A DNA stretch of 64,000 nt from Hyphomicrobiales bacterium (lineage in GTDB: Bacteria > Pseudomonadota > Alphaproteobacteria > Rhizobiales > Rhizobiaceae), in contig UBJR01000017.1 in the NCBI GenBank assembly GCA_900465675.1, positions 62,001 through 126,000 on the forward strand, given 5' to 3'. The position numbers and the translations under genes are program-made. A model generated the notes under the pieces. It searched no databases. It saw only the letters and a list, made by a program, of their open reading frames with translations, and was not told the DNA's origin. How positions within the stretch are numbered: the stretch's first letter is position 1; every line of letters begins with the position of its first letter. This document shows positions 17,241-64,000 of the stretch, piece after piece.

Positions 17241-17250
17241 GGAGTTGCTC

Positions 17251-42726: not shown

Positions 42727-42730
42727 CACG

Positions 42731-44164: not shown

Positions 44165-44166
44165 CT

Positions 44167-45252: not shown

Positions 45253-46118
45253 TGGCCATGCCACCGATCACCTCGAAAGAATACGGGCTGGAGCCTCTGT
45301 CTGCGGCTGACCTCGAGGAAATCTGCGCCCTCATCTACAAGCGCAGCGGCATGGTGTTTGGTGAGACGAAGCGCTATTATATCGAGCGCCGCATTACGGA
45401 CCTGTTGCGCCAGCGGCGGGCGCGATCCGTCAGGGACTACATTTCGATACTGCGCAGCGATTTCGGTGAATCCGAACTGCTGATCAACAGCTTCACAATT
45501 AACGAGACGTATTTCTATCGCGAATTGCACCAGCTTTCGTGCCTGAGCAATTCGATCCTTCCCGACCTCATCCGCGCAAAGGGTCCGGGCGACCGGATCC
45601 GCATCTGGTCCATGCCCTGCTCCAGCGGCGAGGAACCGTATTCCATCGCGATCTGGCTGCTCGAAAACTGGCCGCTCGTGGATGCCTATAATATCGAGAT
45701 CGTCGGGTCAGATATAGATACAGAGATCCTGCGCCGCGCGGTCGATGGCTATTTCGGCCAGCGGGCGCTCTCAAAGCTGTCCCCGGATCTTCTCGACCGC
45801 TATTTCGAACCAGAGCGGGATCAGCAGCGCCGGCTGATCGGCGATCTGAGGGAGTCCGTCACCTTTGCGAAGGGCAATATCATCGATCGCCAGAGCCTTG
45901 CCGCGCTCGGTCATTTTGACGTGATATTCTGCCGCAACCTGCTCATCTATTTTGACGAAGCGGCCCGCGAGACCGCAGCACGAAACATTCGCGAAATGTT
46001 GAATCCCCGCGGCTATGTTTGCCTTGGCCATACGGAGTCTATGTCGAGAATGTCGAAGTCCTTCGACACGGTGCGCTTTCCCGATGCCATCGTTTATCGC
46101 GAGACGAGAGATATATAG
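45252..46118 (+). CDS. cheR: CheR chemoreceptor methyltransferase
   Basis: A 288-residue CheR. The all-helical N-terminal domain (about 15-85, GMVFGETKRYYIERRITDLL) precedes the SAM-binding domain with FTINETYFYRE and IWSMPCSSGEEPYSIAI. The catalytic region has DVIFCRNLLIYFDEAARETA and GYVCLGHTESM. It methylates receptor glutamates using S-adenosylmethionine and opposes CheB. There is no C-terminal pentapeptide-binding or TPR extension. CheA begins at the base after its stop codon. Confidence 0.95.
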   Translation: MAMPPITSKEYGLEPLSAADLEEICALIYKRSGMVFGETKRYYIERRITDLLRQRRARSVRDYISILRSDFGESELLINSFTINETYFYRELHQLSCLSNSILPDLIRAKGPGDRIRIWSMPCSSGEEPYSIAIWLLENWPLVDAYNIEIVGSDIDTEILRRAVDGYFGQRALSKLSPDLLDRYFEPERDQQRRLIGDLRESVTFAKGNIIDRQSLAALGHFDVIFCRNLLIYFDEAARETAARNIREMLNPRGYVCLGHTESMSRMSKSFDTVRFPDAIVYRETRDI

Positions 46119-48077: not shown

Positions 48078-48331
48078 CTATAAGCGTCGATGACAAGGCA
48101 ATTCGATTGGAAGGTCAATGTGGCGTCGAGGAAGTCGAGACACTTGTGGACTACATGGATCGCCATCCCGACCTACATATAGACCTGAGCGCCGCGACAA
48201 CGATCCATACTTCCATTTTGCAAGCATTGATGGTTTTCCGGCCAACTCTTATGAGCCCCCCTGTATCATCCTTGATATCGGATAGTGTACTACGAGAAAT
48301 TTACGCTTGTTGCAGGCAATCCGGCCAGTGA
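48074..48331 (+). CDS. Small STAS-like accessory protein of the che operon, 85 aa
   Basis: The ATG overlaps the cheA stop (ATGA), showing coupled translation. The sequence IRLEGQCGVEEVETLVDYMD then LHIDLSAATTIHTSILQALM follows the beta-alpha-beta pattern of STAS-type domains, with a Thr/Ser pair at the place where anti-sigma-antagonist-like proteins are phosphorylated (by resemblance only). Such proteins accompany CheA in some alternative chemosensory operons. At 85 residues the domain is somewhat short. Its target is unknown. CheY follows after about 90 bases. Confidence 0.65.
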   Translation: MTISVDDKAIRLEGQCGVEEVETLVDYMDRHPDLHIDLSAATTIHTSILQALMVFRPTLMSPPVSSLISDSVLREIYACCRQSGQ

Positions 48332-48423
48332 TAGGCTATCCAACGAGCGAATGCTCCTGCACAAACATACGTGTTACAGGTCATAAGTATGCATAGGTTC
48401 GCAATGATATGTCGGGGAATGAA

Positions 48424-48807
48424 ATGACTGTTACAGTCCTGGTCGTGGATGATAGCAAACTGGCTCGCATTGTCGCGGGCAAGGCGATTGCCGCCTTGCA
48501 GCCCGATTGGACGCGTGTCGAAGCCGGCAGTGCTGCGGATGCCTTGACGCTCGTGGGCTCCCAGCATATCGACGTGGCGATACTGGATTTCAATATGCCG
48601 GATAAAGATGGCCTTGAGCTGGCATCGGAGCTGCGGTCCGCCCACCCTCACATGCCGATCGCGGTGATTACCGCGAACGTCCAGGACGAAATTGTCGCTC
48701 GCGTGCGTGCCCTTAACGCCACATTCGTCGCCAAGCCGGTAACACAGGACGCGCTCAGCCCTTTTATTGCAGGGGCCGCTCTTCGGCTCAAGAAAGCCGG
48801 CACATGA
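48424..48807 (+). CDS. CheY-like response regulator
   Basis: A 127-residue receiver. The acidic pair is D9/D10 (VLVVDDSKLAR), the phospho-acceptor is D55 (AILDFNMPDKDG), the switch residue is T83 (VITANVQ) and the conserved Lys is K104 (FVAKPVT). It is the likely output of this CheA. The ATG at 48424 is preferred because GGGGA lies 5 bases upstream. The ATG five codons earlier has none. Its stop overlaps the start of the CheC gene, so regulator and phosphatase are made together. Confidence 0.9.
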   Translation: MTVTVLVVDDSKLARIVAGKAIAALQPDWTRVEAGSAADALTLVGSQHIDVAILDFNMPDKDGLELASELRSAHPHMPIAVITANVQDEIVARVRALNATFVAKPVTQDALSPFIAGAALRLKKAGT

Positions 48808-49442
48808 CGGACGATACGATCGACCTCAACGAACTCGAGCGCGACGCGCTGACCGAACTCGTGAATATCGGCGTCAGCCGCGCGGCCGCAAGCCTGCGCA
48901 AGATGGTCGAAAAAGAAGTCATCCTTTCGGTGCCATCGGTCGAGATCGTTACCAGGAAATCCGCCGCGTCCCTGATCGGCCAACGGGAGAGCGAAGCTCT
49001 CATAGCCGTGCAGCAGCAGTTCGAGGGCCCGTTCTCTGGCCGGGCGCTGCTGATCTTCCCGCAAAGCAACGGCCTGTCGCTCGTGCGCGCCATTGTTGGT
49101 GATGAAATGGAAGAGGCAGAGCTTCTCGAGATGGAAGACGAGGCGCTCGCCGAGACCGGCAACGTCATACTCAACGGCTGTCTCGGCTCCATGGCGAACA
49201 TGCTGCAGCATAGCTTGAAAATGTCGCTCCCAGATGTGCTGCGCGGCGACAGCAGCCTGCTCTTCGAGGTTTACAACCGAAGCGGCGAAGGAAGTTTCGT
49301 GCTATTCCTGTACATTAACTTTTCTGTCCGGGAACGTGATATCCGCGGCTACATCGCGATGATCATGGACTTGCCGTCCATGGAGAAGCTGAAGCAGCTC
49401 ATTGGCGATTTTATCGACCGTGTAATGACGGATACCGAGTAG
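48804..49442 (+). CDS. CheC-family CheY-P phosphatase
   Basis: A 212-residue CheC-type protein with both phosphatase signatures of the form E-x-x-N: E18/N21 in ELVNIGVSRAA and E117/N120 in ETGNVILNG. Two sites are typical of CheC/FliY rather than CheX, which has one. It would dephosphorylate the CheY encoded just upstream, with which it overlaps by 4 bases (ATGA). CheC is unusual in alphaproteobacteria, where CheY-P decay normally relies on CheZ or on phosphate sinks. This sets the operon apart from the standard rhizobial flagellar chemotaxis operon. Confidence 0.88.
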   Translation: MTDDTIDLNELERDALTELVNIGVSRAAASLRKMVEKEVILSVPSVEIVTRKSAASLIGQRESEALIAVQQQFEGPFSGRALLIFPQSNGLSLVRAIVGDEMEEAELLEMEDEALAETGNVILNGCLGSMANMLQHSLKMSLPDVLRGDSSLLFEVYNRSGEGSFVLFLYINFSVRERDIRGYIAMIMDLPSMEKLKQLIGDFIDRVMTDTE

Positions 49443-49472
49443 CACAAACCCGAATTAGCATTGGCGAACTTC

Positions 49473-51833
49473 ATGACAAATAGTGCCGATAACCCGGTGA
49501 TCGACCGTGAACGTTCGCAGATGGACGCGGCACAACGACGTCTGCAGTTGGTTCTGGAAGCAGCTGGCGCGACTTGCAGCTGGGAATGGGATATTGCCGA
49601 AAAGCGCCTTGTGGCAGACGCGCGTTTTGCCTCCATAACCGACCAAGACCCAGTCGCGCTGGCCGAAGGCGTCGCGACCGACCGGTTCTTCGCCTCCATC
49701 CATCCCGACGACCTGAAGCGGGTGAAAATTGCTGTTGCGGGGATTCTGGCCGGCTCGGAGGTCTTTTCCAAGGAATATAGGCTGCTGCGCAACGATGGTG
49801 GTTATCGCTGGGTCCGTGCCAGCGGACGGGCGATCCGCAACGCAGACGACGAGCCGGTAAAGTTCGTCGGCACTCTTGTCGACATCACCGAACAGAAGCG
49901 CAGCGACGAGCAACTTCGCATCGCCCAGTCTGCAGGCGGCATCGGTACTTTCGAATATATCGTCGGCTACGGCACGATCCGCGTCTCGGAACAGTTCTGT
50001 CGACTGTTCGGCCTACATCCGACAAAAATATTACCGGTCAAGACCCTCAACGACCTCATTTATCCCGGCGACAAACCTATTATTGATCTCAGCGATCCCA
50101 ATAGTCTTCAGAGCGAACATAACATCGAGTTTCGGGTCGCGCGCGCCGACGACGGAGAAGAGCGCTGGCTCGCACGCCGCGGCGAATATGTGGAGAACAT
50201 CGAGACCAGCGGCCGGCGCTACGTCGGCGTCATCTTTGATATAACCGATGCCAGGAAAACGCAGGAAAGTCTGCGGCATGCCAACGAGAAGCTTGCCGAG
50301 ATAGCGCGTGACAGCATTCGTGAGCGGGACCGCGTCTGGAAAAACTCGCGAGACCTTCTCGTCGTAATCGATACGAATGGGGTGTTCAGGGATGTCAGCC
50401 CGTCCTGGCGTGACATTCTCGGTCACATACCGGGTGAGGTCATCGGCAAAAGAGTACTCGACTTCGTCTGGGCGGAGGACCGTGACCAGACGCAGCCCGA
50501 CCTAAAGAGGGCCTCAGAGAACACCCATACAGCGCTTGAAGTGCGACTCACCCATCACGATGGTTCGCCTCGGGTGATTTCTTGGATGACCTCCCGCGAA
50601 GACGACCGCATCTACGCATATGGTCGCGATGTCACGCTCGACAAGCAACAGAAAGCGGTCCTTGAGGAAACGGAAGCCCAATTGCGGCAAGCTCAAAAAA
50701 TGGAAGCTGTTGGTCAGCTCACTGGTGGTATCGCGCACGATTTCAATAACATGCTCACGGGGGTGATCGGCGCTCTATCCATCATCAAGAGACGGATTGC
50801 TGCCAAAAAAACCGATGATCTCGACAAGTTTATCGATGCAGCGACATCGTCCGCGCATCGCGCTGCATCACTCACTCATCGCCTACTTGCCTTTTCCCGC
50901 CGCCAGTCCCTTGATCGGCAACCTGTCGACGTAACGAAACTCGTTGTTTCCATGGAGGAGTTGTTTCGTCGGACCCTTGGGGAGCAGGTAAAACTGCAGA
51001 TTATTCCGGCACCCGAGACCTGGAACGCGATCACCGATGCCAACCAGCTCGAGAGCGCTATCCTCAATCTGGTCATCAATGCCCGCGATGCGATGCCGGA
51101 TGGTGGTCAGTTGACCATTGAGACTGCAAATGTTGGTTTTACCAAGGCCGACCTCGCCCACGGCGAGACCTTGGAACCCGGGAATTACGTCGTGATCGCC
51201 GTGAGTGACACCGGCACGGGCATGTCGCAAGCGACGATTGATAAGGCATTTGATCCCTTTTTCACGACAAAGCCGATCGGACAGGGTACGGGTCTCGGTT
51301 TGTCGATGATTTATGGCTTTGCGCAGCAATCGGGGGGCCATGCCCGCATTTATAGCGAAATCGGCATCGGCACGACGATCAAGCTGTACCTTCCGGGAGG
51401 AACGGCAACCGAAGCAGGGGCGCCCACCCAACAGAAACCCGCAATTTCCCTGCCGCGCGGCGACGGGGAAACCGTCCTTGTTATCGAGGATGATGACTCC
51501 GTTCGCATGCTCGTCGTCGACGTACTCAAGGAGCTCGGGTACCGCGTGATTGAAACAGTTGACGGCAACCAAGCCCTGCCCGTGATCGAAGGGTCTGAAC
51601 GTATCGATTTGCTGGTTTCGGACGTTGGCCTTCCGGGATTGAACGGGCGCCAAATCGCGGAAATCGCCGTCGCCGCCCGTCCCGGTCTGAAAGTTCTATT
51701 CATCACCGGCTACGCCGCAGCCGCCGCCGCCAGAGCTGAATTTCTCGGCCCTGGTATGGAGATGATCACAAAACCCTTTGCGATTGATGATCTTGCCCAG
51801 AAAGTGAGAATGATGCTGACGGTTATCGGCTGA
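49473..51833 (+). CDS. PAS-domain hybrid sensor histidine kinase
   Basis: A soluble protein of about 786 residues with three PAS folds (about 20-140, 148-262 and 288-395). The first has the PAS3 pattern FFASIHPDDLKRV and YRWVRASGRAI. A HisKA domain follows with H422 (GGIAHDFNNMLTG), then a HATPase with N box NLVINARDAMPDGG, G1 DTGTGM and G2 GQGTGLGLS. A C-terminal receiver spans about 670-783 (VLVIEDDDSV, phospho-Asp in LLVSDVGLPGLNG, Lys in ITKPF). No membrane helix is present, so it senses an internal cue. It lies 30 bases after cheC in the same direction and may be an additional input to that operon. The start is uncertain (TTG 49461 or ATG 49473; no good ribosome binding site). Confidence 0.88.
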   Translation: MTNSADNPVIDRERSQMDAAQRRLQLVLEAAGATCSWEWDIAEKRLVADARFASITDQDPVALAEGVATDRFFASIHPDDLKRVKIAVAGILAGSEVFSKEYRLLRNDGGYRWVRASGRAIRNADDEPVKFVGTLVDITEQKRSDEQLRIAQSAGGIGTFEYIVGYGTIRVSEQFCRLFGLHPTKILPVKTLNDLIYPGDKPIIDLSDPNSLQSEHNIEFRVARADDGEERWLARRGEYVENIETSGRRYVGVIFDITDARKTQESLRHANEKLAEIARDSIRERDRVWKNSRDLLVVIDTNGVFRDVSPSWRDILGHIPGEVIGKRVLDFVWAEDRDQTQPDLKRASENTHTALEVRLTHHDGSPRVISWMTSREDDRIYAYGRDVTLDKQQKAVLEETEAQLRQAQKMEAVGQLTGGIAHDFNNMLTGVIGALSIIKRRIAAKKTDDLDKFIDAATSSAHRAASLTHRLLAFSRRQSLDRQPVDVTKLVVSMEELFRRTLGEQVKLQIIPAPETWNAITDANQLESAILNLVINARDAMPDGGQLTIETANVGFTKADLAHGETLEPGNYVVIAVSDTGTGMSQATIDKAFDPFFTTKPIGQGTGLGLSMIYGFAQQSGGHARIYSEIGIGTTIKLYLPGGTATEAGAPTQQKPAISLPRGDGETVLVIEDDDSVRMLVVDVLKELGYRVIETVDGNQALPVIEGSERIDLLVSDVGLPGLNGRQIAEIAVAARPGLKVLFITGYAAAAAARAEFLGPGMEMITKPFAIDDLAQKVRMMLTVIG

Positions 51834-51993: not shown

Positions 51994-53040
51994 TCAAGGT
52001 TTGGATCTGAGACTGGCGCCGACACGGTTCAGCGACGGCAGCTCGACCCTGACGTGAAGGTCTTGGTCGCGCCACTCCCGACTTATTTTGCCACCAAGTT
52101 GCTTCTCCAGCACGGCGCCAAGCAAAACAGTGCCGAAGCCCTTCCGGGGCGTAGCGCCGTTCTTGATGCCCTGCTCGCGCCACTCAATCGTCAGCCCGTT
52201 GTCCGCCTGTCGCCAGGTGACAGTCAGGCTTCCCTCAGGATGCGAGAGCGCTCCATGCACCGCAGCGTTTGCGGCAAGCTCATGAATTGCCAGTCCGAGT
52301 GGCTGAACCGAAGGCGCGGGGATCATGACCGACGGACCGCTGATCTCGACAGCTTTAGCCCCGTAGGCACTGATCTGCAGCGATATGATGTCGTGGAGCG
52401 AGGCCTCCTGCCAGCCATTCTCGGCGAGCAGCATGTGGGTTCTGGCAAGCGCCTGAACCCGCTGCTGAACGGACGCGGCATAGGCAGCGGCGTTGTCGGA
52501 TCGTGTCAGGCGCACGATGCTATCGACGATGGCCAGCACGTTCTTCGTTCTGTGGTCCACCTCCAGCAGCAAACGGTGCTCAGCCTCTTCGAGCGTCTGG
52601 ACCTTCCGATATTCGGTGACGTCGATCTGGGACGCAAAATAATAGGCAAGACGACCGTCGTCGTCCCTGATGGGGCTGAGATGAAGCTGGTTCCAAAAGG
52701 CACTTCCGTCCTTCCTATAGTTGAGGATTTCGACTGTGCCCTCGCGCTCAGCGCCGATGATGGCCCGTATCTGGGCGACAGACTCTCTCGATGTGTTCTC
52801 TCCCTGCAGAAGCCGACAGTTCCGTCCCACGAGATCTTGCGCGTCATAGCCGGTGAGGTGAAGGAAAGCTTCGTTTGCAAGAACAAGTGGGTAGTCGGGC
52901 TGACGGGCATCCGCGACCACAATAGGCATCCGCGTTCGCTGAAACGCGAATGCAGCGAGCTCCTTGTGATCGACCATCCCTTGTGTGGAGGCCGCGGCCG
53001 GCTTGTCCCCATGAATGTCTGACGGCTTGGCTTCGATCAC
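51994..53040 (-). CDS. LOV-domain HWE-family histidine kinase (blue-light sensor candidate)
   Basis: A 348-residue soluble kinase. The N-terminal PAS domain (about 28-145) carries the LOV flavin signature GRNCRLLQG with the adduct-forming Cys75, plus NYRKDGSAFWNQLHLSPI. Blue light would form a flavin-cysteine bond and change kinase activity. The kinase part is HWE type: H163 in EVDHRTKN, HELAANAAVHG (His253 to Asn258) and the Trp-x-Glu at 287-289 (IEWREQG). HWE kinases in rhizobia signal to single-domain regulators like the one at 31849. It is convergent with the PAS hybrid kinase gene and transcribed alone. Confidence 0.9.
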   Translation of the reverse strand: MIEAKPSDIHGDKPAAASTQGMVDHKELAAFAFQRTRMPIVVADARQPDYPLVLANEAFLHLTGYDAQDLVGRNCRLLQGENTSRESVAQIRAIIGAEREGTVEILNYRKDGSAFWNQLHLSPIRDDDGRLAYYFASQIDVTEYRKVQTLEEAEHRLLLEVDHRTKNVLAIVDSIVRLTRSDNAAAYAASVQQRVQALARTHMLLAENGWQEASLHDIISLQISAYGAKAVEISGPSVMIPAPSVQPLGLAIHELAANAAVHGALSHPEGSLTVTWRQADNGLTIEWREQGIKNGATPRKGFGTVLLGAVLEKQLGGKISREWRDQDLHVRVELPSLNRVGASLRSKP

Positions 53041-53381: not shown

Positions 53382-53587
53382 CGCGCCTTATCCGCCCATT
53401 TACGGAAAGCTTGCGTTGTCAGTGGAGCTCGAGCTTTTGAAGAAAAATTCGATCACAACGAATTCGATCAGCTCTTTAGTGTCACACACGTCCGCAGCAG
53501 CGACGTCTCGGAACTGGATCCTTCTCTGGAAGTTAAGTGGTAGTGCCGCCTCACAGACTACCGTGTCGACATCAATTAGGTATGTTT

Positions 53588-54736
53588 ATGAAGCTGCGCC
53601 GTATCGTCATCATTAGCGACTATCAGGACGGAGCGTTGGGTGATGACGACATTCCGTCCGTAAACGCATATCGCCACCAATGGCTGAGTGGGTCGAGAGG
53701 CTGCTTCCCCAAGCCGGTTTCGGACCTTGGAGCCGTGACGGTCGATGGAGGATATCTCGAACGGTTACCGTTGGCCGCACTCAAGGACGGTCTTGTAGAT
53801 TGCTGTGAAATCTGGACGCACTGGCGTGGCAATGCGCCGCCTCCAGACTGGACGACAGGTAGTCGATTTCTTACGCGCCGTGCGTTTCGCATGAACGGAC
53901 CGGAAGCCCCTTTCGCATCGAACGATATGCTCGGGCATATTGCGGCATTTGGGCCACCGGACATTCTCTGCGTGTGGGGCCTTGGTGTCTGCGAAGACAT
54001 CATTCTTGCCTGCCAAGACAGCTTCAAGATCTACAATTCTATCGATGCACCGGCGCTTCGGGTGCCCTCGGAGGTGAGCCGTCATTTCGATCTCGTGTTG
54101 ACCGGCGCCGAATGGCAGTCGGACGTGGTGAAGGCCCGTCATCCAGCAATGCGAACGGAGGTTATGCCGGTCGGTCCTGAATTCGCCTCCGATGTGACAT
54201 TCCGCCCATTAAACATCCCGAAGACGCACGACATAATCTACGTGGCAGCCGCGCAGCACTACAAACGACACGATATCCTGTTCGACGCGCTCGCGCGGCT
54301 TCCAAGGTCGCTGCGCGCATTGTGCGTATCCGGCTATGGCGAACTCGTCCCGGAATTGCGCAACCACGCACAACGGCTGGGCATCGACGTCGAGTTCTTC
54401 GGACCGCCCGGAGTTCCCTTCGACGAGGTCAATCGCCTGATGAACCGGGCACGGATCGGCGTTGTCTGTGGTATAGACGACGGAGCGCCGGCAATCCTGA
54501 CGGAATACATGCTGGCAGGCATTCCGGTTCTGGCCAACAGCGAGCTCTGCTGCGGGCTCCAGTACCTGACCCCGGAAACTGGTCGCACGGCGTCCGCGAT
54601 GGACTTTCACGAGGGTATTCTCGACTTGCTTGGATGTGCAGACACGTTGCGTCCTCGCGTCGTTGTGCTCGCTCGCTGGACCTGGCCGCATAGCGCACGC
54701 AAACTCAGGCAGTTGATCACAGGCACCGAAAACTGA
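53588..54736 (+). CDS. Glycosyltransferase (GT-B fold, group 1 type)
   Basis: A 382-residue soluble or peripheral enzyme. The C-terminal half shows the GT4-like pattern: KTHDIIYVAAAQHYKRHDIL, LRALCVSGYGELVPEL, and DDGAPAILTEYMLAGIPVLA, the sugar-nucleotide-binding E-x-x-x-x-G-x-P block. The N-terminal half is unlike standard GT4 and includes WLSGSRGCFPKPVSDLGAV. The ATG at 53588 has AGG 7 bases upstream. It opens a rightward cluster of glycan genes with only 68 bases before the next gene. Donor and acceptor are unknown. Confidence 0.8.
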   Translation: MKLRRIVIISDYQDGALGDDDIPSVNAYRHQWLSGSRGCFPKPVSDLGAVTVDGGYLERLPLAALKDGLVDCCEIWTHWRGNAPPPDWTTGSRFLTRRAFRMNGPEAPFASNDMLGHIAAFGPPDILCVWGLGVCEDIILACQDSFKIYNSIDAPALRVPSEVSRHFDLVLTGAEWQSDVVKARHPAMRTEVMPVGPEFASDVTFRPLNIPKTHDIIYVAAAQHYKRHDILFDALARLPRSLRALCVSGYGELVPELRNHAQRLGIDVEFFGPPGVPFDEVNRLMNRARIGVVCGIDDGAPAILTEYMLAGIPVLANSELCCGLQYLTPETGRTASAMDFHEGILDLLGCADTLRPRVVVLARWTWPHSARKLRQLITGTEN

Positions 54737-54804
54737 CGCCCATTTCGCCCGACGGAACTTTCGCAAGGAACCGAAGTTGGGGTTATGAAGTAACGAGGTG
54801 TTTG

Positions 54805-57153
54805 ATGGACGTGTTGAATTCCACATTGCAGACGCCTGAACCCTGCGCTTCCCGTAACCCTCCCCTCGTTTGTTTTTCGCATCTTCGATGGGATTTCGTG
54901 CTGCAGAGACCGCAGCATCTGATGCAGAGATTTTCTCGCGAACGGGAGGTCTTCTTCTTCGAAGAATTCATCCCGACCGACCACCATCTCGCCTATCTGG
55001 AAATCCACCCTTTCGTGGATACCAACGTCAAGGCTGTCCGGCCGCGGATACCGCATTGGTGGAGCGAGGCTGAGCAGGAAAAGGCGCTCGGTGAACTTCT
55101 TGACGAGTTGATTGCGCTAGGCGGCGGACGCCGCCCGGTCCTTTGGTTTTACACGCCTATGATGTTCAGCTTCGCTGGACATGTGGATGCCGAAGCAGTG
55201 ATCTACGATTGCATGGACGAACTGGCCAATTTCAAGTTCGCGCCGCCCCGGTTGAAGGAAACGGAAGATGCGCTGATCGCGCGCGCTGATGCCGTCTTCA
55301 CTGGCGGCGCCAGTCTCTACGAGGCGAAGAAGCACCGGCACGACAACATCCATGCCTTCCCGTCCAGCGTCGACGCGCATCATTTCCGCAGAGCCCGCGA
55401 GGTACAGGGGGACCCGGCAGATCAGGCCGCGATCCCGCATCCCCGGCTCGGCTATTATGGCGTGATCGACGAGCGGCTCGACCTCGATCTGATCCGCGAG
55501 ACGGCAAATGCCCGGCCGGATCACTCGTTCGTTTTCATCGGTCCGGTAGTCAAGATTTCGCCCGAAGATCTGCCAAAGGCAGCGAACATTTATTATCTCG
55601 GGCAGAAATCCTATAAGGATCTCCCGGCCTACCTATCCGGTTGGCAGGCGGCCATAATGCCTTTTGCGCTGAACGAGGCAACCCGCTTCATTAGTCCCAC
55701 CAAGACACCCGAATATCTTGCGGCTGGACGGCCGGTGGTGAGCACCCGCATTACAGACGTAGAACGCAGCTACGGCGATGTCGAGGGCGTTTTCCTAGCC
55801 GATGGCGCTGTCGCGTTTGCGCGAGCCTGCGACGCCGCGCTGACGCTTTCGCGTTCAGGTGACGCATGGAGGAAGGCAGCGGATGTCACACTTGCCAGTT
55901 CGTCCTGGGATGCCACCTTTCGCTCGATGTCACATTTCGTCGAGCAGGCGGTTGCTGACAGAAACCCGCCTGCCGTTTCGAGAGACGCATCGTTCGCGTT
56001 TCACCGCAGTTCGGTTCGTCGGGGCTACGACTACCTGGTAGTTGGCGCCGGCTTTGCCGGATCGGTGATGGCCGAACGTCTCGCCAGCGACGGCCGTTCG
56101 GTCCTTGTCTGCGATCGGCGGCCGCATATCGCCGGAAATGCCTATGATCATCGCGATGAGGCGGGCATACTCGTGCACAAATACGGGCCGCATATTTTCC
56201 ATACCAATAGCGAGGACGTGTTCGCCTATCTTTCCCGGTTCACCGCCTGGCGGGGCTATGAGCATAGAGTGCTGGCGCAGGTTGGCGATCTGAGGCTGCC
56301 CATTCCCATCAACCGCACGACGCTGAACGGGCTGTTCGGCCTCAACCTCTCGAACGAGACAGAGGCTGCGCAGTTTCTGGCAAGCCGCGCCGAACCCTGC
56401 GAGCCGATCCGCACATCGCGAGACGTCGTTGTGTCGCAGGTTGGCGGCGAGCTATACAGGACCTTCTTCGAGGGCTATACGCGCAAGCAATGGGGTCTTG
56501 ACCCTTCCGAACTCGACCGTTCCGTCACGGCACGGATTTCGACCCGCACCAGCGACGACGACCGTTACTTCCTTGACATGTTTCAAGCGATGCCGCGCGA
56601 CGGATATACGCGGATGTTCGAGCGCATGCTTGACCACCAGAACATCACGGTCTTGCTCGATACGGACTACGCCGACTTGCGTAACGACGCCTTGGCGAAA
56701 CACACGATCTTTACCGGTCCGATCGACGAATACTACGATTTCTGCTTCGGGCACCTGCCCTATCGCAGCCTCGAATTTCGGCACGAAACGCATGACGCAC
56801 GACGACTTTTGCCCGTCGGCGTAGTCAACTATCCTTCTGAAGACGTGCCTTACACACGCATTACCGAATACAAGCATCTGACCGGTCAGGTTCATCCCAA
56901 AACGAGCATCAGCTACGAGTTCGCATGCGCCGAAGGCGACCCCTACTATCCGATCCCCAGATTTGAGAACCAGGCACTTTACCGGCAGTACGAAGCCCTT
57001 GCGCGGGTGCAGAGCGACGTCACGTTCGTGGGCAGGCTTGGCACCTATAAATACTACAACATGGACCAGGTTGTTGGACAGGCCCTTGCGACGCACCGGC
57101 GCTTACAGAAGCGGCTGGGACATAGCGTCATGGCGGATTCGCAGCTTGACTAA
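54805..57153 (+). CDS. Glycosyltransferase fused to UDP-galactopyranose mutase
   Basis: A 782-residue fusion. Residues about 20-385 are a GT-B glycosyltransferase of the kind beginning VCFSHLRWDFVLQRPQHLMQ, with the donor-site segment FISPTKTPEYLAAGRPVVST. Residues about 408-782 are a complete UDP-galactopyranose mutase. It has the FAD motif VVGAGFAGSVMAERL, then HIAGNAYDHRDE, KYGPHIFHTN, FEGYTRKQWGLDP, and PYTRITEYKHLTGQ near the active site. The mutase converts UDP-galactopyranose to UDP-galactofuranose using reduced FAD. The transferase half may use that product, so the two active sites would be in one chain. The ATG at 54805 has GAGG 6 bases upstream. Separate genes are the usual arrangement. 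Confidence 0.9.
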   Translation: MDVLNSTLQTPEPCASRNPPLVCFSHLRWDFVLQRPQHLMQRFSREREVFFFEEFIPTDHHLAYLEIHPFVDTNVKAVRPRIPHWWSEAEQEKALGELLDELIALGGGRRPVLWFYTPMMFSFAGHVDAEAVIYDCMDELANFKFAPPRLKETEDALIARADAVFTGGASLYEAKKHRHDNIHAFPSSVDAHHFRRAREVQGDPADQAAIPHPRLGYYGVIDERLDLDLIRETANARPDHSFVFIGPVVKISPEDLPKAANIYYLGQKSYKDLPAYLSGWQAAIMPFALNEATRFISPTKTPEYLAAGRPVVSTRITDVERSYGDVEGVFLADGAVAFARACDAALTLSRSGDAWRKAADVTLASSSWDATFRSMSHFVEQAVADRNPPAVSRDASFAFHRSSVRRGYDYLVVGAGFAGSVMAERLASDGRSVLVCDRRPHIAGNAYDHRDEAGILVHKYGPHIFHTNSEDVFAYLSRFTAWRGYEHRVLAQVGDLRLPIPINRTTLNGLFGLNLSNETEAAQFLASRAEPCEPIRTSRDVVVSQVGGELYRTFFEGYTRKQWGLDPSELDRSVTARISTRTSDDDRYFLDMFQAMPRDGYTRMFERMLDHQNITVLLDTDYADLRNDALAKHTIFTGPIDEYYDFCFGHLPYRSLEFRHETHDARRLLPVGVVNYPSEDVPYTRITEYKHLTGQVHPKTSISYEFACAEGDPYYPIPRFENQALYRQYEALARVQSDVTFVGRLGTYKYYNMDQVVGQALATHRRLQKRLGHSVMADSQLD

Positions 57154-60100
57154 AAAAGCACATATCGTTCTGGCGACGGATAGTCTCGACCCGTCGGGAA
57201 TGGGCGAGCACATGCTCGCGCTTGCGCGCGGCTGCGCTCACGAGTGGGATGTGACGATTGCGCTGATCGGGGAGGATCGCAATGGTCTACTGCCCCGCGC
57301 CGCGCGTTTCGGCGTTAGGATACGGCTTGCCCGCGATGAAGAGGATTTCGCAGACTGGCTCTCTCAGGCCGGTAGCGATCTCCTTCATGTTCATGCTGGA
57401 ATAGGCTGGGAAGGACTTAATCTCAGCGCAGTCGGCGTGGCAAAGGGCATTCCGGTCATCCGCACCGAACACCTGCCCTATCTTCTGACCAACCATCGGC
57501 AACAAGAGGACTATCGCCTTGCGTCGCGGAACATCTCCCATCACATCGTCGTCTCCGACGCTTCGCTAGCCAGTTACGAGGCACACATCGCAACGGACCG
57601 ACTGACGGTGATCCGCAATGGCATCTATGCGCGTGAGCCAATCGCAGCAGCGATGGAACGGACACAAAACCTCGCATCCGACAATGCGCCTGTTCTGCTG
57701 ACCGTAGCACGACTGACCGCGCAAAAGGATCATGCGACATTGCTGCGCGCCTTGCCGCAAGTCTTGAGGCGGCATCCCTCCACCATGCTTCTGCTGGCAG
57801 GATCGGGCGAGGAACAGGAGACCCTCAAGGCGCTTGCCCAAAGTCTCGGCGTAGCCGCCCATATCCGTTTTCTGGGCCAGCGTGCAGATGTCGCTGAGCT
57901 CGTTGCAGGCAGCGATCTCTTCGTCCTGCCGTCACTGTTCGAAGGGCTGCCGCTCGTCGTGCTGGAAGCGATGTCGCTTGGTACGCCTGTGGTCGCGACG
58001 CGTATTGGCGGTACCCTGGAAGCGCTCGGCGAAGAACACCCGTTTTTTGCAGTGCCAGGCGATGTCCAGTCGCTAGCCGATACAATCATTTTGGCGCTTG
58101 CCGATCCGATTCGGCTGGCTGGCGTCGGCGCCGCCGCGGGAGAACGCTTCCGACAGCTCTTTTCTGCCGATCGGATGGCGGCAGAAACCGGCGCGATTTA
58201 CGGCCGCTTTGCAGGAAAATCAGGCCCAACGCAAAAGGATCTCTCAATGCAAAAGACACGTCTGGCCTTTATCGGCGTCGGCGGGATCGCACAACGACAC
58301 CTCGACATCATCGCCGGCTTTGACGACGTCGAACTGGTCGGCTTTGCGGATCCCGATCTTGGCCGGGCAGATGCGGCCGCGATGCGTTTTGGCGCCAAAG
58401 CCTTCTCCCATCATAAGGAGATGCTCGACGCGGTCAGTCCGGACGCCGTGTATGTCTGCGTCCCGCCCTTTGCCCATGGCGAACCGGAACGCGCGCTCGT
58501 CGAGCGGGGAATTCCGTTCTTCGTCGAAAAACCGGTGGCGCTCGATTTGGCAATCGCGGAGGAGATTTCGGCGGCGGTGAGCGCTCGGGGTCTGATTACC
58601 GGCGTCGGCTATCATTGGCGCTATCTGGACATCGTCGACGAAGCGCGCGGCTTGTTGAAGGACAATCCGGCGCAACTTTTGTCCGGCTACTGGCTGGATT
58701 CCACTCCGCCGCCGAAATGGTGGTGGAAGGAAGATAAGTCGGGCGGACAGATGGTGGAGCAGACGACCCATCTTCTCGATCTTGCGCGATTTCTGGTGGG
58801 CGAAGTCACCGAAGTTTACGGGCGTGCCGGGCATCTCGACCGGACCGACTTTCCAGATCTCGACGTGCCAACGGTGACGACTGCCAACCTAACGTTCGAA
58901 ACCGGTGTCGTTGCAAACATTGCCTCCACCTGCCTGCTCGGATGGAACCATCGCGTTGGTCTGCACATCTTCGCAAACCAGTTGGCGATCGAGTTGACCG
59001 ACCGTGAGATCATGGTGGATGTCGGCCGAGGACGTCCGGTGCGCGGGGCCGATGGCGACCCGGTGTGGCGCGAGGACCGAGATTTCATCGACGCAGTGCG
59101 CGGCGGCGAAAACCGAATACGTTGTCCCTATGCGGAAGCGCTAACGACGCATCGGCTTGCACTTGCCGTGGTGTCCTCGGCAAAATCAGGTCAGGTCGTC
59201 AGGCTCCATCCGCCGAGCACGCAAAGACCGAACCCGGCTCCCCTGCAGTTCCAGCGACGCCCAGAACCGCCGCCGCTCGAACTGGCGCCGGGGCACAGGA
59301 CAATCTGCTCGCTTGGCGTCGAGGCACCGGGCCGCCCGTATTTCTTCGAATATGATGAAGGGCCGCCAGCGAATGGCGAGGTTCGCCTCGACACTCTCTA
59401 CACCGGCCTCTCAGCAGGGACCGAACTGACCTTTCTCAAAAACACCAATCCCTATTTTCGATCGCGTTTCGATGGGGAGCGCGGCGCTTTCATCGAGAAC
59501 GAGGCGGACCTTCACTTCCCGGTGCCGTTTCTCGGCTATATGGAAGTTGCGCGCGTAGCGGAATCGCGCGCACACGGCTTCTCAGACGGGGATGTGGTTG
59601 CCACGACCTATGCCCACAAGTCCGGGCACACCGCCAACCCGTTCAATGACCTTCTGGTGCCGATGCCGAAGGACATAGATCCACTGCTCGGCGTGCTTGT
59701 CGCGCAGATGGGTCCAATCTGCGCCAACGGCATATTGCATGCCGACGCTGAGGCTTTCGGAGGCCAAGTGCCCTTCCTCGGCGCCAGCGTGAAGGATCGC
59801 CCGGTCATCGTCATCGGCGGCGGTACGGTGGGGCTGATAACGGCGCTGTTTGCCCGCGCGCTCGGTGCCTCGGACGTGCTCGTGACGGACCCTTCCGAGT
59901 TCCGCCGCGGCAAGGCGGAGGCGATGGGACTGATGGCTATGACGGAGGATCAGGCCTGGCAGCATGCCAAGGCGCGTTGGCATGACGGTGCGATGGGCCG
60001 GGGCGCCGACTTGGTATTCCAGACCCGGGCGCAGTCCGCGAGCCTGCATACCGCGCTAAAGGCCCTGCGACCGCAGGGCACGGTGATCGACCTCGCCTTC

Positions 60101-60385
60101 TACCAACGCGGCGCCGAGGCGCTCCGACTTGGGGAGGAGTTTCACCACAATGGCCTCACCATACGCTGTGCCCAGATCAACCGCGTGCCTCGTGGACTAG
60201 CACCGCTGTGGAACCGCCGACGGCTTGCGCTGGCAACTGTCGATCTTATCCGACGTGAGGGTAGCGCGATCCGCGAGCACATGATCACCCATGTCATTCC
60301 GATGACCGACGCGCCGGCCTTTTTAACCGACCTCATCGAAAACCGGCCGGATTTCCTGCAGGTCGTCTTCCAGGTAGGCGAATGA
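57146..60385 (+). CDS. Three-part fusion: glycosyltransferase, Gfo/Idh/MocA oxidoreductase and MDR dehydrogenase
   Basis: A 1079-residue single frame. Residues 1-355 form a GT4 glycosyltransferase (HIVLATDSLDPSGMGEHML, donor site FEGLPLVVLEAMSLGTPVVA). Residues about 370-700 form a Gfo/Idh/MocA oxidoreductase with the NAD site FIGVGGIAQRHL and catalytic EKPVALD. Residues about 730-1079 form an MDR dehydrogenase (GLSAGTELTF, VIVIGGGTVGLITALFARAL) with no obvious zinc-ligand Cys/His set, similar to BchC-type proteins. The start is TTG at 57146, overlapping the previous stop by 8 bases with GGCGGA upstream. An in-frame ATG at 58247, preceded by AAGGA at 7 bases, could also start a shorter two-domain product. 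The oxidoreductases may make or alter a nucleotide sugar for the cluster. Confidence 0.87.
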   Translation: MTKKAHIVLATDSLDPSGMGEHMLALARGCAHEWDVTIALIGEDRNGLLPRAARFGVRIRLARDEEDFADWLSQAGSDLLHVHAGIGWEGLNLSAVGVAKGIPVIRTEHLPYLLTNHRQQEDYRLASRNISHHIVVSDASLASYEAHIATDRLTVIRNGIYAREPIAAAMERTQNLASDNAPVLLTVARLTAQKDHATLLRALPQVLRRHPSTMLLLAGSGEEQETLKALAQSLGVAAHIRFLGQRADVAELVAGSDLFVLPSLFEGLPLVVLEAMSLGTPVVATRIGGTLEALGEEHPFFAVPGDVQSLADTIILALADPIRLAGVGAAAGERFRQLFSADRMAAETGAIYGRFAGKSGPTQKDLSMQKTRLAFIGVGGIAQRHLDIIAGFDDVELVGFADPDLGRADAAAMRFGAKAFSHHKEMLDAVSPDAVYVCVPPFAHGEPERALVERGIPFFVEKPVALDLAIAEEISAAVSARGLITGVGYHWRYLDIVDEARGLLKDNPAQLLSGYWLDSTPPPKWWWKEDKSGGQMVEQTTHLLDLARFLVGEVTEVYGRAGHLDRTDFPDLDVPTVTTANLTFETGVVANIASTCLLGWNHRVGLHIFANQLAIELTDREIMVDVGRGRPVRGADGDPVWREDRDFIDAVRGGENRIRCPYAEALTTHRLALAVVSSAKSGQVVRLHPPSTQRPNPAPLQFQRRPEPPPLELAPGHRTICSLGVEAPGRPYFFEYDEGPPANGEVRLDTLYTGLSAGTELTFLKNTNPYFRSRFDGERGAFIENEADLHFPVPFLGYMEVARVAESRAHGFSDGDVVATTYAHKSGHTANPFNDLLVPMPKDIDPLLGVLVAQMGPICANGILHADAEAFGGQVPFLGASVKDRPVIVIGGGTVGLITALFARALGASDVLVTDPSEFRRGKAEAMGLMAMTEDQAWQHAKARWHDGAMGRGADLVFQTRAQSASLHTALKALRPQGTVIDLAFYQRGAEALRLGEEFHHNGLTIRCAQINRVPRGLAPLWNRRRLALATVDLIRREGSAIREHMITHVIPMTDAPAFLTDLIENRPDFLQVVFQVGE

Positions 60386-62679
60386 CAGAGGAAACCGCGC
60401 CGATCCGCATCCTGTTCGTATTTGCCTGGTTGGTGGTCGGCGGCGAGGAAACTGAGGTGCGGCTGCTGGCCGGAAATCTCGACCCGCGGCGCTTTCGCAT
60501 CGACGTGGTCACCTGCTTCCGCAAGCCGGGCATGCCGGAGCAGACGCATGAACAACTGGCCGCGCTTGGCGTCGATGTCGATACGACACCCTACAAACTG
60601 TCGTTCGAAGCTACCGTCGACTATCTGGCTGCCAAGATCCCTTGCTACGATATCGTGGTGTCATGCCAGAACGTCGCCGATATCTATCCGGCCCTGGAAC
60701 GGCTGCACCTGCGCCCCCCGCTTGTCGAGCATGGCGGGCTCGTCTCGGAGGCCTTGGCCGGACCAAAACACCTGACGAACCGATATATCGGCGTCTGCCG
60801 TTCGATTCGCGACGCCGCGGCATCGCATATGCCGGGGCGTGAGCATCATGCGCTCGAGATCCCGTCCATGGTCGATCTGGCGAGTTTCGACCCGTCGTTC
60901 CGTGGGGCGACCCGGCGGGCGCTTGGGATAACCGACAACCAGATGCTGATCGGCTGGGTCGGCCGGCTCGACCCCAAGAAGAATGTCGAGGATTTTATCG
61001 AGGCTGCCGCCCTTGTCGGCCTGCGCGACAGCCGGGCCCGCTTTGTGATCGTCGGCGGCCCGGACGCCTTCATGCCGGAGTATGCTGACCGCCTTAAGGC
61101 GCTGGCTCAGCAGCGTGGACTGGCAGCGAAATTGCAGTTTCTCGGCGACCGGAAGGATGTTCCCGAGCTACTGTCTGCCTTCGACATCTTCGTCTGGCTT
61201 TCTCGCGGCGAAGGTATGCCGCATGTGATCGCCGAGGCCGGGGCCGCCTCTCTTCCAGTCATCGCAACGCCCGACAACGGCGCGCTGCAGCAGATCGAAG
61301 ACGAGATTTCCGGTCTTTTTGTTTCTTACAGCGACCCTGAGGCCGTGGCGAAAAACATCGCCCGGCTGATCGATGACCCTGCACTGCGGCGGTCGCTCGG
61401 CGCTGCACTGCGGGATAGCGTCAAGGAGCGCTATGCCACGGAAGCTGTGGTCCCCCACTGGAGAAAACTGTTTTCCGACGTGCTAGCAGAAAGGGTGCCG
61501 TCGGGGCCAACCGGCCTTTTTCAATCCTTCCTGCAGGGCGGATTCGAATGCTCGAGCCACCGGCTTCGTCCCCATAAGGACGAGAAGGTCGGCCGCCGGC
61601 TCGACATGCTTGCCGCGATCGGCCACGACCGCCATGCCGCCCAGGATTATCGTCAACTGGCGGAGTTCGGCATTCGTACGGTGCGCGACGGCTTTCGCTG
61701 GCACCTGATCGACCGGGCCGGTCACTACGACTGGTCAAGCATTAGGCCCATGTTGCAAGCGGCGCAAACGACCGGTACGCAGGTGATCTGGGACCTGCTC
61801 CATTATGGCTGGCCCGACGATCTGGACATCTGGTCACCGGGCTTCGCTGACCGTTTCGCACGCTTTGCGGGCGAATGTGCCAAAATTGTTCGGGAAGAAT
61901 GCGACACAGTTCCGTTTTATTGTCCCGTCAACGAGATTTCTTTCTTCTCATGGGGGGGTGGCGACGCCGGGTACCTCAATCCCTTTGCTAGCGGGCGTGG
62001 GTTCGAGCTGAAGGTGCAACTGGCACGCGCTGCGATCGCTGCCATGGAAGCGATCCTTGCCGCAGACGGCCGAGCGCGTTTCGTCCATTGCGATCCGGTG
62101 ATAAACGTCATCACTGACCCATCTCGCCCATGGGAACGGGGCGTTGCCGAAAGTCATCGGCAATCACAATTTCAGGGGTGGGACCTGATCTCAGGCCGCC
62201 TCTGGCCGCAGATCGGCGGCCAGGAGCGCTATCTCGATGTCATCGGCGTTAATTACTACTTCAATAATCAGTGGATCCATGGCGGTCCGCCGATTGACAT
62301 CGGTCATCCTCTTTATAAGCCGTTTAGCAATATCCTGATCGAGACCTATGCCCGCTATGGCAGGCCTTTGATAATCGCAGAAACGGGCATCGAGGGTGAA
62401 CGACGCGCTGCGTGGTACAGCTATGTTTCTTCACAGGCGCGCTTGGCGATGAAAGCAGGCGTGCCATTGGAAGGGCTATGTCTATATCCAATCGCCGATC
62501 ATCCGGGATGGGACGACAATCGTATGTGTGAAAACGGGCTCCTGTCTGCAGAGGTGTCGATCGGAGGGCGGCAAGCCGATGCGGCGTTGTCTTCGGCTAT
62601 CCGGCGAGTCGGGCCGATCCCGAACGCGATAGTAACGCAGGCGGCGAGGATAACAGGCCCGCCAGCAATCACTCACTGA
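60382..62679 (+). CDS. Glycosyltransferase fused to a clan GH-A glycoside hydrolase
   Basis: A 765-residue fusion. Residues 1-375 are a GT4 glycosyltransferase (FVFAWLVVGGEETEVRLLAG, GRLDPKKNVEDFIEAAALV, donor site SRGEGMPHVIAEAGAASLPV). Residues about 385-740 are a TIM-barrel hydrolase like GH1 and its relatives. The acid/base Glu518 is in PVNEISFF and the nucleophile Glu667 is in IIAETGIEG, with GVNYYFNN and the closing ADHPGWDDNRMCENGL. It lacks a signal peptide, so the hydrolase half is cytoplasmic and may act on lipid-linked or nucleotide-linked sugars, or work as a transglycosidase. The ATG overlaps the previous stop (ATGA), so the three fusion genes are translationally coupled. Confidence 0.87.
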   Translation: MTEETAPIRILFVFAWLVVGGEETEVRLLAGNLDPRRFRIDVVTCFRKPGMPEQTHEQLAALGVDVDTTPYKLSFEATVDYLAAKIPCYDIVVSCQNVADIYPALERLHLRPPLVEHGGLVSEALAGPKHLTNRYIGVCRSIRDAAASHMPGREHHALEIPSMVDLASFDPSFRGATRRALGITDNQMLIGWVGRLDPKKNVEDFIEAAALVGLRDSRARFVIVGGPDAFMPEYADRLKALAQQRGLAAKLQFLGDRKDVPELLSAFDIFVWLSRGEGMPHVIAEAGAASLPVIATPDNGALQQIEDEISGLFVSYSDPEAVAKNIARLIDDPALRRSLGAALRDSVKERYATEAVVPHWRKLFSDVLAERVPSGPTGLFQSFLQGGFECSSHRLRPHKDEKVGRRLDMLAAIGHDRHAAQDYRQLAEFGIRTVRDGFRWHLIDRAGHYDWSSIRPMLQAAQTTGTQVIWDLLHYGWPDDLDIWSPGFADRFARFAGECAKIVREECDTVPFYCPVNEISFFSWGGGDAGYLNPFASGRGFELKVQLARAAIAAMEAILAADGRARFVHCDPVINVITDPSRPWERGVAESHRQSQFQGWDLISGRLWPQIGGQERYLDVIGVNYYFNNQWIHGGPPIDIGHPLYKPFSNILIETYARYGRPLIIAETGIEGERRAAWYSYVSSQARLAMKAGVPLEGLCLYPIADHPGWDDNRMCENGLLSAEVSIGGRQADAALSSAIRRVGPIPNAIVTQAARITGPPAITH

Positions 62680-63162
62680 CCAATGTCTGGGTATAAAATT
62701 TGTTCACTGGCGCGGGAATTTTGGTAGGATATCCATGCTCGATGCCAAATCAGTCAGTCTGGGACGCGTGAGACCTTCGCCGTAGGTATCAATCCGCCAA
62801 TTTCGACTGCGCGATAGTGACTTCCAAGGCGGGCTTTGAACCGAGACGCTTTCAGAAACCGAAAGTTTAGGCCTTGTGTCTCGATCTGTTTAGTCGAGCC
62901 GCCTCACGAAACTGGAAGCGTGCCGCGCGCGGCTAGACACCTAGACAACATCAAACGGCCGCATTAACGCGATACATGGTGAGCGAACTGCGATGCCGCG
63001 CCGAGGCGGCGATGCCGATGACAAAGTAGCCCGCACTTAGCGGTCGAAGTTTCCCGAAATCATTACGTTTATGGAGCAAGCCTTGTAACGGCTTGAATTA
63101 TTTTTTTGAAATCACCAAGCCAAAATTCCCCTTCGTCGGCCAGCCGACCGGCACGCGCCAGC
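62680..63162. other. Intergenic stretch, no gene seen
   Basis: About 480 bases between the fusion cluster and the desaturase pair. A short ATG frame with AGGA upstream (62733, 16 codons) ends at once. No terminator with a T-run or long repeat stands out. The promoter of the desaturase pair is presumably here but cannot be pinned down. Confidence 0.4.
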
Positions 63163-63339
63163 ATGGATGCCACCGCAACAACCAATTCGCAGAGCCTGAT
63201 GAGGCGATACGAGCAGTATATGCTTCTGGCGCGAGAGGCCGCCCAGACCGGTGACCGGATCGAGGCCGAGAACCTCTCTCAGCACGCGGAACACTTTTAT
63301 CGCACGGCCGCCCTGCAGAGAGCTGGCCAGCCACAATGA
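63163..63339 (+). CDS. Short DUF4167-like protein
   Basis: A 58-residue protein carrying only the conserved helical pair of DUF4167 (RRYEQYMLLAREAAQTGDRI then EAENLSQHAEHFYRTAA). Full DUF4167 proteins in rhizobia have a long basic Gly/Asn-rich region before this motif, which is absent here. The frame is open upstream to a TTG at 63106, and the start is uncertain for lack of a clear ribosome binding site. Its stop overlaps the ATG of the desaturase gene (ATGA), so the two are translated together. Confidence 0.6.
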   Translation: MDATATTNSQSLMRRYEQYMLLAREAAQTGDRIEAENLSQHAEHFYRTAALQRAGQPQ

Positions 63340-64000
63340 ACACGAAGCCAATGTACACCGCTCCTGAGAGCAGGGATGAAAAGGCGTGGCTTAAAATCCT
63401 TGCAAAATATCGCACGCCGCATGCGGGCCGGAGCGTATTTGAGCTGGTGGTCACAGCCATCCCGTTCGCCGCCTTCTGGACGCTGACCTGGTTGGCGGTC
63501 CATTACGGCTTCTGGTGGGGTTTGGTCCTGATCATGCCTGCAGCGGGATTTCTGCTACGGCTATTCATGATCCAGCACGATTGCGGCCACGGCTCCTTTT
63601 TCGCCCGGCGGCACTTCGATGACTGGACAGGCCGTGTTTTAGGCGTCCTTACCCTGACCCCGTATGATTACTGGCGCAGGGCGCACGCTGCGCATCACGC
63701 GTCAGCCGGCAATCTCGATGAGCGGGGCGTCGGAGACATCACCACTCTTACTGTGACGGAATATTATGAACGGTCTCGGTGGGGACGGGTCGGCTATCGT
63801 CTCTACCGGCATCCACTGGTGATGTTTGGCATAGGCCCGGCTTGGCTCTTCCTGTTTCAGCAGCGCCTGCCGATGGGCATGATGCGCAATGGCATGCTGC
63901 CATGGGTGTCGACGATGGCCACCAATGTCGCAGTTGTCGCGATTGCCGCGCTCCTGATCTGGGTGATCGGCCCTGTCTCCTTTCTAATCGTCCACCTACC
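63336..64000 (+). CDS. Fatty acid desaturase, cut by the window end
   Basis: The ATG at 63336 overlaps the previous stop. The 221 residues visible have membrane helices at about 34-75 and 160-215. Two of the three histidine boxes are present: HDCGHGS (around residue 86) and RRAHAAHH (around residue 120). These bind the diiron centre that inserts a double bond into acyl chains. The third box would lie beyond the window. It is a membrane-bound desaturase of the omega-type group. The next stretch is not visible, so completeness cannot be judged. Its proximity to the glycan cluster suggests a lipid-linked or membrane-lipid context, by inference. Confidence 0.88.
   Translation, partial: MNTKPMYTAPESRDEKAWLKILAKYRTPHAGRSVFELVVTAIPFAAFWTLTWLAVHYGFWWGLVLIMPAAGFLLRLFMIQHDCGHGSFFARRHFDDWTGRVLGVLTLTPYDYWRRAHAAHHASAGNLDERGVGDITTLTVTEYYERSRWGRVGYRLYRHPLVMFGIGPAWLFLFQQRLPMGMMRNGMLPWVSTMATNVAVVAIAALLIWVIGPVSFLIVHL

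Follow-up and report, generated by a model that had tools for sequence, protein, structure and literature searches.

A conserved cassette of glycosyltransferase fusions in rhizobia and some further alphaproteobacteria, with general-stress promoter motifs and a probable galactofuranose product

The 64,000-nucleotide stretch analysed here (the window; positions 62,001 to 126,000 of contig UBJR01000017.1, assembly GCA_900465675.1, from a Hyphomicrobiales bacterium of the Rhizobiaceae) carries four consecutive glycosyltransferase (GT) genes, A to D, on the + strand at 53588-62679, three of which are fusions with another type of enzyme. We propose that this cassette is probably a self-contained biosynthetic unit, controlled by the general-stress sigma factor EcfG, for a galactofuranose (Galf)-type glycoconjugate which would be assembled in the cytoplasm and may be a membrane glycolipid, the nature of the product being read from the encoded enzymes and from the conserved surroundings of the genes.

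Domain searches and a predicted structure bear out the row of four GT genes of the original prediction, with fusions to UDP-galactopyranose mutase (GLF), to Gfo/Idh and medium-chain dehydrogenase/reductase (MDR) enzymes, and to a glycoside hydrolase (GH). Coordinates and domain boundaries are given in Table 1, for which the start codons of A to D are our choice. With Pfam and NCBIfam models, protein B matches Glyco_trans_1_4 and GLF (PF03275, 2.5e-77), protein C matches Glycos_transf_1, GFO_IDH_MocA and ADH_zinc_N, and protein D matches Glycos_transf_1, its GH part having no Pfam match at E<=0.01. The GT part of B has no match to solved structures at the same threshold. Gene C, which has a TTG start, shares 8 bases with the end of B, and C and D overlap by 4 bases. 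The EX7E motif is kept in the GTs of C and D, and the EKP motif in the Gfo/Idh part of C. The catalytic zinc ligands of MDR zinc alcohol dehydrogenases are a Cys and a GHE motif; by eye, conserved SAGTE and GYME stretches are found in the MDR part of C at the usual places of the zinc-ligand motifs. By hydropathy analysis, A, B and D are free of strongly hydrophobic stretches, and C has a few windows slightly above the usual limit, inside the MDR part. The four proteins do not have the look of membrane proteins, and assembly is probably cytoplasmic.

Table 1. Location of the cassette genes, promoter-type motifs and other features (window coordinates unless a locus is named).
Feature	Position	Strand	Remarks
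Gene A	53588-54736	+	GT4-like glycosyltransferase, 382 amino acids (aa), DX7E-like motif; Pfam/NCBIfam: GT group 1
Gene B	54805-57153	+	GT (residues ~1-395, weakly TuaH-like) and UDP-galactopyranose mutase (GLF, ~401-782)
Gene C	57146-60385	+	GT4 (~1-362), Gfo/Idh/MocA oxidoreductase (~365-700) and MDR oxidoreductase (~716-1079)
Gene D	60382-62679	+	GT4 (~1-372) and divergent GH1-fold glycoside hydrolase-like domain (~375-765)
EcfG-type motif GGAAC-N17-GTT	53510..53534	+	starts 78 bases before A
EcfG-type motif GGAAC-N17-GTT	54754..54778	+	starts 51 bases before B
PAS hybrid histidine kinase	49461-51833		domain scan; upstream of cassette
PAS and HWE-type histidine kinase	51994-53040	-	divergent from gene A
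DUF4167 protein	63163-63339		PF13763, 2.9e-12; downstream of D
Desaturase	63336 to ~64385, past window end		PF00487, 4.5e-31; after DUF4167 protein
GH-acyl-CoA dehydrogenase fusion, D. radiodurans	L131 8932-11271		domain scan
GH-acyl-CoA dehydrogenase fusion, Deinococcus sp. AJ005	L142 7935-10298		annotation

Relatives of the cassette were collected by scanning one genome per species with protein C, and the best 80 of 88 loci were retained and named. They come from Rhizobium, Agrobacterium, Neorhizobium, Aureimonas, Devosia, Mesorhizobium, Sphingomonas, Paracoccus and their relatives; as all were found via protein C, genomes with A, B or D and no C are not represented. Homologues of A are present in 73 of the 80 loci (four of the seven misses are contigs ending on that side) and homologues of B in 77 (all three misses are cut contigs), with A preceding B wherever both were found, L066 being the sole exception.

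The GLF half of B is what points most directly to Galf. It scores 366.4 bits with TIGR00031, above the equivalog cut-off of 303.75, and matches the solved mutase 3hdq, which we take to be the enzyme of Deinococcus radiodurans, over nearly its whole length (1.1e-164). Unlike those mutases, it sits behind a GT in one chain and under a stress-type promoter. GLF is fused to B in 52 of the 77 loci, and 4 of the remaining 25 have a GLF gene adjoining the cassette. If the GT of B needs UDP-Galf, genomes in which B lacks GLF are expected to hold another copy. Such a GLF was indeed found elsewhere in all of the 21 genomes searched, that is, those whose unfused B has no adjoining GLF. For comparison, a second GLF occurs in 6 of 22 named genomes with a fused one (the own genome of the window has none), and, within the window's genus, 19 of 49 genomes that lack the cassette hold a GLF. 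Use of UDP-Galf by the cassette appears likely, and Galf remains the best guess, as in the original prediction.

The hydrolase part of D, originally assigned to the GH-A group, has the right fold under that label and can be narrowed to a GH1-like enzyme. Its structure, predicted with 46 homologues (pLDDT 87.8), aligns to GH1 beta-glycosidases, with 3zjk as best match (Z 35.4, 345 aligned residues, 2.9 A, 19% identity), and the model thus indicates a GH1-type (beta/alpha)8 fold. The glutamates of the PVNE and AETG stretches, invariant in 47 sequences, are candidate catalytic residues, an assignment made by analogy with GH1 motifs. The fold is shared with GH1 beta-glycosidases (PF00232), as the two glutamates would be under this analogy; the D domain differs from these in its low identity (14-20% in the matches shown), in having no match to the PF00232 profile at E<=0.01, and in being fused to a GT4 and encoded together with biosynthetic genes. 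A class-wide search with the GH alignment found the domain in only 4 of 385 genomes, the own genome included, so that it is rare across the sampled class. In some Aureimonas and Devosia strains the cassette is immediately followed by a second, distant GH1-like copy (24-27% identity; L051 15496-16383, L052, L056, L071 15479-16438).

Beyond the groups that carry the cassette, a B-type GT, a mutase-type flavoenzyme and a GH1-like enzyme are found linked without A and C. In Azospirillum argentinense and A. brasilense, GT and GLF form one chain followed by the GH and an ATP-binding cassette (ABC) transporter, and in A. lipoferum and Skermanella the same four functions are encoded by separate genes; the transporter thus follows the core in all four Azospirillaceae regions that were read, and for A. 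argentinense a domain scan identified its ABC_membrane and ABC_tran parts. GT, GLF and GH are linked in Chryseobacterium, and in Comamonas a single gene for GH and GT precedes GLF. Pantoea soli encodes a single chain of 1242 aa (L133 7834-11562) composed of GH1-like, GT and amine-oxidase-type flavoenzyme parts, of which the flavoenzyme matches PRK07208-type models and not TIGR00031. In Methylomagnum, a GT-flavoenzyme and a GH occur with galT and galK, as judged from annotation and match positions, and in Caballeronia a GT and GLF lie beside a GH1-RmlD fusion and capsule-type genes. In D. radiodurans and Deinococcus sp. AJ005, GH1-like and acyl-CoA dehydrogenase-like domains form a single protein, with PIG-L adjoining and a methyltransferase nearby; in AJ005 this fusion is close to a GT-GLF pair, catalase and Dps.

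Adjacent GH and GT matches were evident in 16/16 enterobacterial-type plasmid records among the matches listed (one of them labelled Acinetobacter). Among the 60 plasmid records listed (of 106) with a GH match, many of them near copies, 39 lie outside Rhizobiaceae and Aureimonas. For 31 of these, the 60 GT matches listed of 140 include a B-type GT no more than 10 kb away; for three they do not (A. thermophilum, D. radiodurans, D. wulumuqiensis), and five, all Deinococcus records, could not be judged from the rows listed. The spread of this core across groups suggests a common pathway for the mutase, the GT and the GH1-like enzyme.

Taken together, the following course of events may be envisaged. 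Stress would lead EcfG to switch on B, and in some strains A. The GLF half of B would convert UDP-Galp to UDP-Galf, from which its GT half would transfer Galf, and the GTs of A, C and D would add further sugars to an acceptor that is probably a lipid or a small molecule, all in the cytoplasm. The Gfo/Idh and MDR parts of C could oxidise and then reduce a hydroxyl of a sugar or cyclitol, for example by way of a keto intermediate to an epimer, and the GH1-like half of D could either trim the product or shift a sugar by transglycosylation. The ABC transporter directly downstream in Azospirillaceae may flip the product, which favours a membrane glycolipid over a free solute; in Rhizobiaceae, export would require a transporter acting in trans. 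A bolder version of this scheme, which we regard as doubtful, is that of stress-switched glycolipid remodelling, in which a conserved core of GT, furanose-sugar mutase and GH1-fold enzyme, extending from rhizobia to Pantoea, Chryseobacterium and Deinococcus, would place galactofuranosyl lipids in the envelope upon drying or oxidative stress, with the GH1-like domain as a transglycosidase. A GH1-like protein working as a transglycosidase is known in SFR2, the freezing-tolerance enzyme of plants.

Alternatively, the product could be a soluble cytoplasmic stress glycoside, either a compatible solute or a small redox-type glycoside, with the Gfo/Idh-MDR pair modifying an inositol or sugar core and the GH recycling it. 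This possibility, although we consider it the less probable one, deserves to be taken seriously: A to D all look cytosolic by hydropathy, the promoters described below are of the stress type, and the GT of C matches PimB'- and PimA-type GTs as well as 2jjm, presumably a BshA-type enzyme, which is also matched by the GT of D. Such enzymes take small or lipid acceptors. The GT domains of C and D resemble these PimA/PimB'- and BshA-type GT4 enzymes in sequence and share their EX7E motif, but score far below equivalog cut-offs, so that donor and acceptor are not readable from the matches. For the Gfo/Idh part, inositol 2-dehydrogenase is the top-ranking NCBIfam model, with a score well under the cut-off, and inositol dehydrogenases rank after 8w9s and DgpA among solved chains matching this part. 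A free solute is harder to reconcile with the ABC transporter gene found after the core in Azospirillaceae and with the position of the Caballeronia GT-GLF pair beside capsule-type genes.

The capsule-type context in Caballeronia may equally be taken to suggest that the cassette decorates a surface polysaccharide (lipopolysaccharide, capsule or exopolysaccharide) whose export genes lie elsewhere, and GLF together with GT4 enzymes is typical of O-antigen and exopolysaccharide loci. We nevertheless consider such a role unlikely. Neighbour families were built by clustering every frame of 110 aa or longer in the 80 loci, and one representative was scanned for each family present in at least 6 loci, with one small 7-locus family left out; no polysaccharide export, Wzx/Wzy polymerase or priming gene was found among the families scanned or among the window genes scanned. 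Moreover, the flanks vary between loci while the cassette itself stays closed. The earlier remark that no such genes are visible therefore stands, but the suggestion drawn from it, that the product may not be exported, is weakened by the transporter of Azospirillaceae.

Control of the cassette by the general stress response is well supported by the DNA upstream of its genes. The EcfG motif of Sphingomonas melonis Fr1, GGAAC-N17-20-GTT (PMC6599016), is the same as that preceding A and B in the window, in both cases at less than 100 bases from the start codon, as in EcfG regulons of alphaproteobacteria. The EcfG-dependent glycosyltransferases mentioned there could not be matched to the cassette, and the word 'galactopyranose' does not occur in the main text of PMC6599016. 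Among the relatives, the motif is found before B in 49 of 77 loci, compared to 4.1% of 410-base windows drawn at random from these loci. When spacings from 8 to 30 were profiled before B (78 rows, window included), a spacing of 17 was seen in 49 rows, 18 in one, and each other in 0-5. Permuted -35 words averaged 0.6 rows, as against 50 for the real word; the sole high one, CGGAA with spacing 16, in our reading largely reflects the same sites read one base early. No motif at spacing 17 or 18 was found before C (80 rows) or D (81 rows).

Its distribution follows groups, as defined by record titles (the locus L068, from a Devosia metagenome-assembled genome and without motif, belongs to none). 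Before B the motif is present in 43/43 loci of Rhizobium/Agrobacterium type, 4/8 of Aureimonas, 2/19 of Paracoccaceae, 0/2 of Devosia, 0/3 of Sphingomonas and 0/1 of Mesorhizobium; before A the corresponding figures are 11/42 for Rhizobium/Agrobacterium type, 0/8 for Aureimonas, 3/18 for Paracoccaceae, 1/2 for Devosia and 0/3 for Sphingomonas. The motif lies 51-55 bases from B in 36 of the 43 loci, and positions outside the motif are poor in information (0.01 to 0.9 bits). Among plasmid records outside the 80 loci, five of five from Hyphomicrobiales have the motif, placed at -51 to -54, with two of the five closely duplicating each other and L041; it was not found in 10 records of more distant relatives. 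NepR, a marker of the general stress system, was found in the own genome and in 40/40 of the cassette genomes searched (of 41). That most Paracoccaceae loci and all three from Sphingomonas have no such motif before B is therefore not due to lack of the system, and this explanation was rejected for Paracoccus.

That the motifs arose by chance or belong to another sigma factor, the cassette having no stress role, would account for these absences. Nevertheless, this is very improbable in view of the complete series of Rhizobium/Agrobacterium-type loci, the near-fixed distance amid variable positions, the sharp specificity for spacing and word, the recurrence outside the 80 loci, and the stress genes that adjoin the cassette.

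Several observations do weigh against a stress-controlled Galf unit. Before B the motif is missing in 17/19 Paracoccaceae, 4/8 Aureimonas and 3/3 Sphingomonas loci although their searched genomes have NepR, and even in Rhizobium/Agrobacterium-type loci it precedes A in a minority only. The counts of stress-related neighbours given below stand without a background comparison, no linked exporter was found in Rhizobiaceae, and in Deinococcus radiodurans the GH is far from the GT-GLF genes. With regard to the mutase, one of the 21 genomes with a GLF elsewhere has only a copy slightly below the TIGR00031 cut-off, and standalone GLFs are 40-45% identical to that of the window. The complementarity between fused and separate GLF is confounded by kinship, and with about 4:0 independent pairs (median p 0.125) it did not reach significance as a correlated change. 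Control of standalone GLFs by EcfG was also considered and rejected, as the motif was found in 2 of 30 regions, 23 of which came from genomes with a GLF-less B.

As judged from the relatives, the fusions are real and the four genes form a conserved unit. The GT and GH parts of D are fused in 78/78 loci having both parts on the contig. Protein C is a single chain in 54 of the 80 loci, two genes (GT with Gfo/Idh, then MDR) in 20, and three or more pieces in 5, with L091 not scored as its GT part is off the contig. Frameshift or assembly artefacts, for which one might invoke relatives with the parts as separate genes, or the Devosia locus L071 with the Gfo/Idh part of C broken over two frames, are a negligible explanation for frames kept fused in this many loci (52/77 in the case of B). 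Fusion orders are thus co-inherited among relatives and not sequencing errors, as the comparison called for in the original prediction has now made clear. The activities are not, however, as 'hard-wired' into three chains as had been thought: this is one state only, with GLF absent from B in 25/77 loci and C split in 25/80. A quick tree of D requires a minimum of 7 changes in the state of C and of 8 in that of GLF, which suggests that fusion and fission are frequent; this tree left out L036 and L068 (truncated D) and wrongly scored L091 as a three-gene C, which may inflate the C count. In Sinorhizobium meliloti RCAM1115 (L097, ~6122-6564), A consists of fragments in different frames, with B, C and D annotated whole.

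At E<=1e-60, protein C was detected in 11/60 genomes of the window's genus (own included) and in none of 40 that represent the order's other genera, and 39 of 57 plasmid records matching it are predicted to be conjugative. All the domains are of known families; what is apparently undescribed is the cassette as a whole, its control by stress and the core shared across phyla. No description of the cassette was found in the titles and abstract starts of the open-access literature; subscription papers and supplementary tables could still hold one. The general-stress promoters, the stress-gene neighbours, the wider GT-GLF-GH core and the Azospirillaceae transporter are new with respect to the original prediction. 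An odd set of fusions thereby becomes a testable system, namely a 9-kb unit, often on predicted conjugative plasmids, which ties a probable Galf pathway to the general stress response, and whose natural fusion and fission states offer a built-in map of activities working together. Plants and mammals, to our knowledge, lack Galf; if plant-associated bacteria carry a Galf product induced by stress, it would bear on both survival and host recognition.

Frames inside or antisense to the cassette aside, each neighbour family is present in at most 16 of the 80 loci. The recurrent ones often represent stress and repair equipment, as judged from domain matches: an ABC-type ATPase and DUF892 (16 loci each), Ku (13), a long catalase (11), LigD and a YflT heat-induced stress domain (9 each), a TRCF-type repair helicase and YetF/DUF421 (8 each), and DUF4142 and an extracytoplasmic function (ECF) sigma factor with a PhyR_sigma2 match (7 each). 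An HWE histidine kinase (scanned in L057), a short-chain dehydrogenase/reductase, a FAD/NAD(P)-binding protein and a tRNA thiolase-type enzyme occur in 6 loci each, and two frames opposite catalase as well as one small frame gave no domain match. Annotated neighbours point in the same direction as the stress promoter: imuA, DUF892 and DUF4142 in R. leguminosarum WSM1325; Hsp20, catalase and a ferritin-like protein in Phyllobacterium; catalase and a general stress protein at the A. larrymoorei copy; and catalase and Dps in a Deinococcus. Genes for the bacterial end-joining pair, Ku and LigD, occur repeatedly at distances of up to 10 kb from the cassette, in L079, L083, L084, L085, L087, L088 and others.

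The DUF4167 protein and the desaturase reported downstream of D are present in the window, but the desaturase, suspected to be co-inherited, was found in 0/80 loci and was rejected as a member of the cassette. The same applies to the downstream esterase F and transglutaminase-type protein G, with one match each (L028 and L034). In Paracoccus, genes for a NodS-like methyltransferase, PIG-L and acyl-CoA dehydrogenase converge on the cassette in L086 (~15430-17949, by domain scan) and L088 (the latter two only, by BLAST). As obligate partners these three were rejected, none having been found in 60 genomes of the window's genus in a search without positive control.

Upstream of the cassette, the NCRLLQG stretch in the PAS domain of the HWE-type kinase resembles LOV photosensor domains, and HWE kinases can act on the general stress system. 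Further upstream, the window carries chemotaxis-type signalling genes, recognised by eye from their translations, which are followed by the hybrid kinase just 5' of the cassette (~40750-51833).

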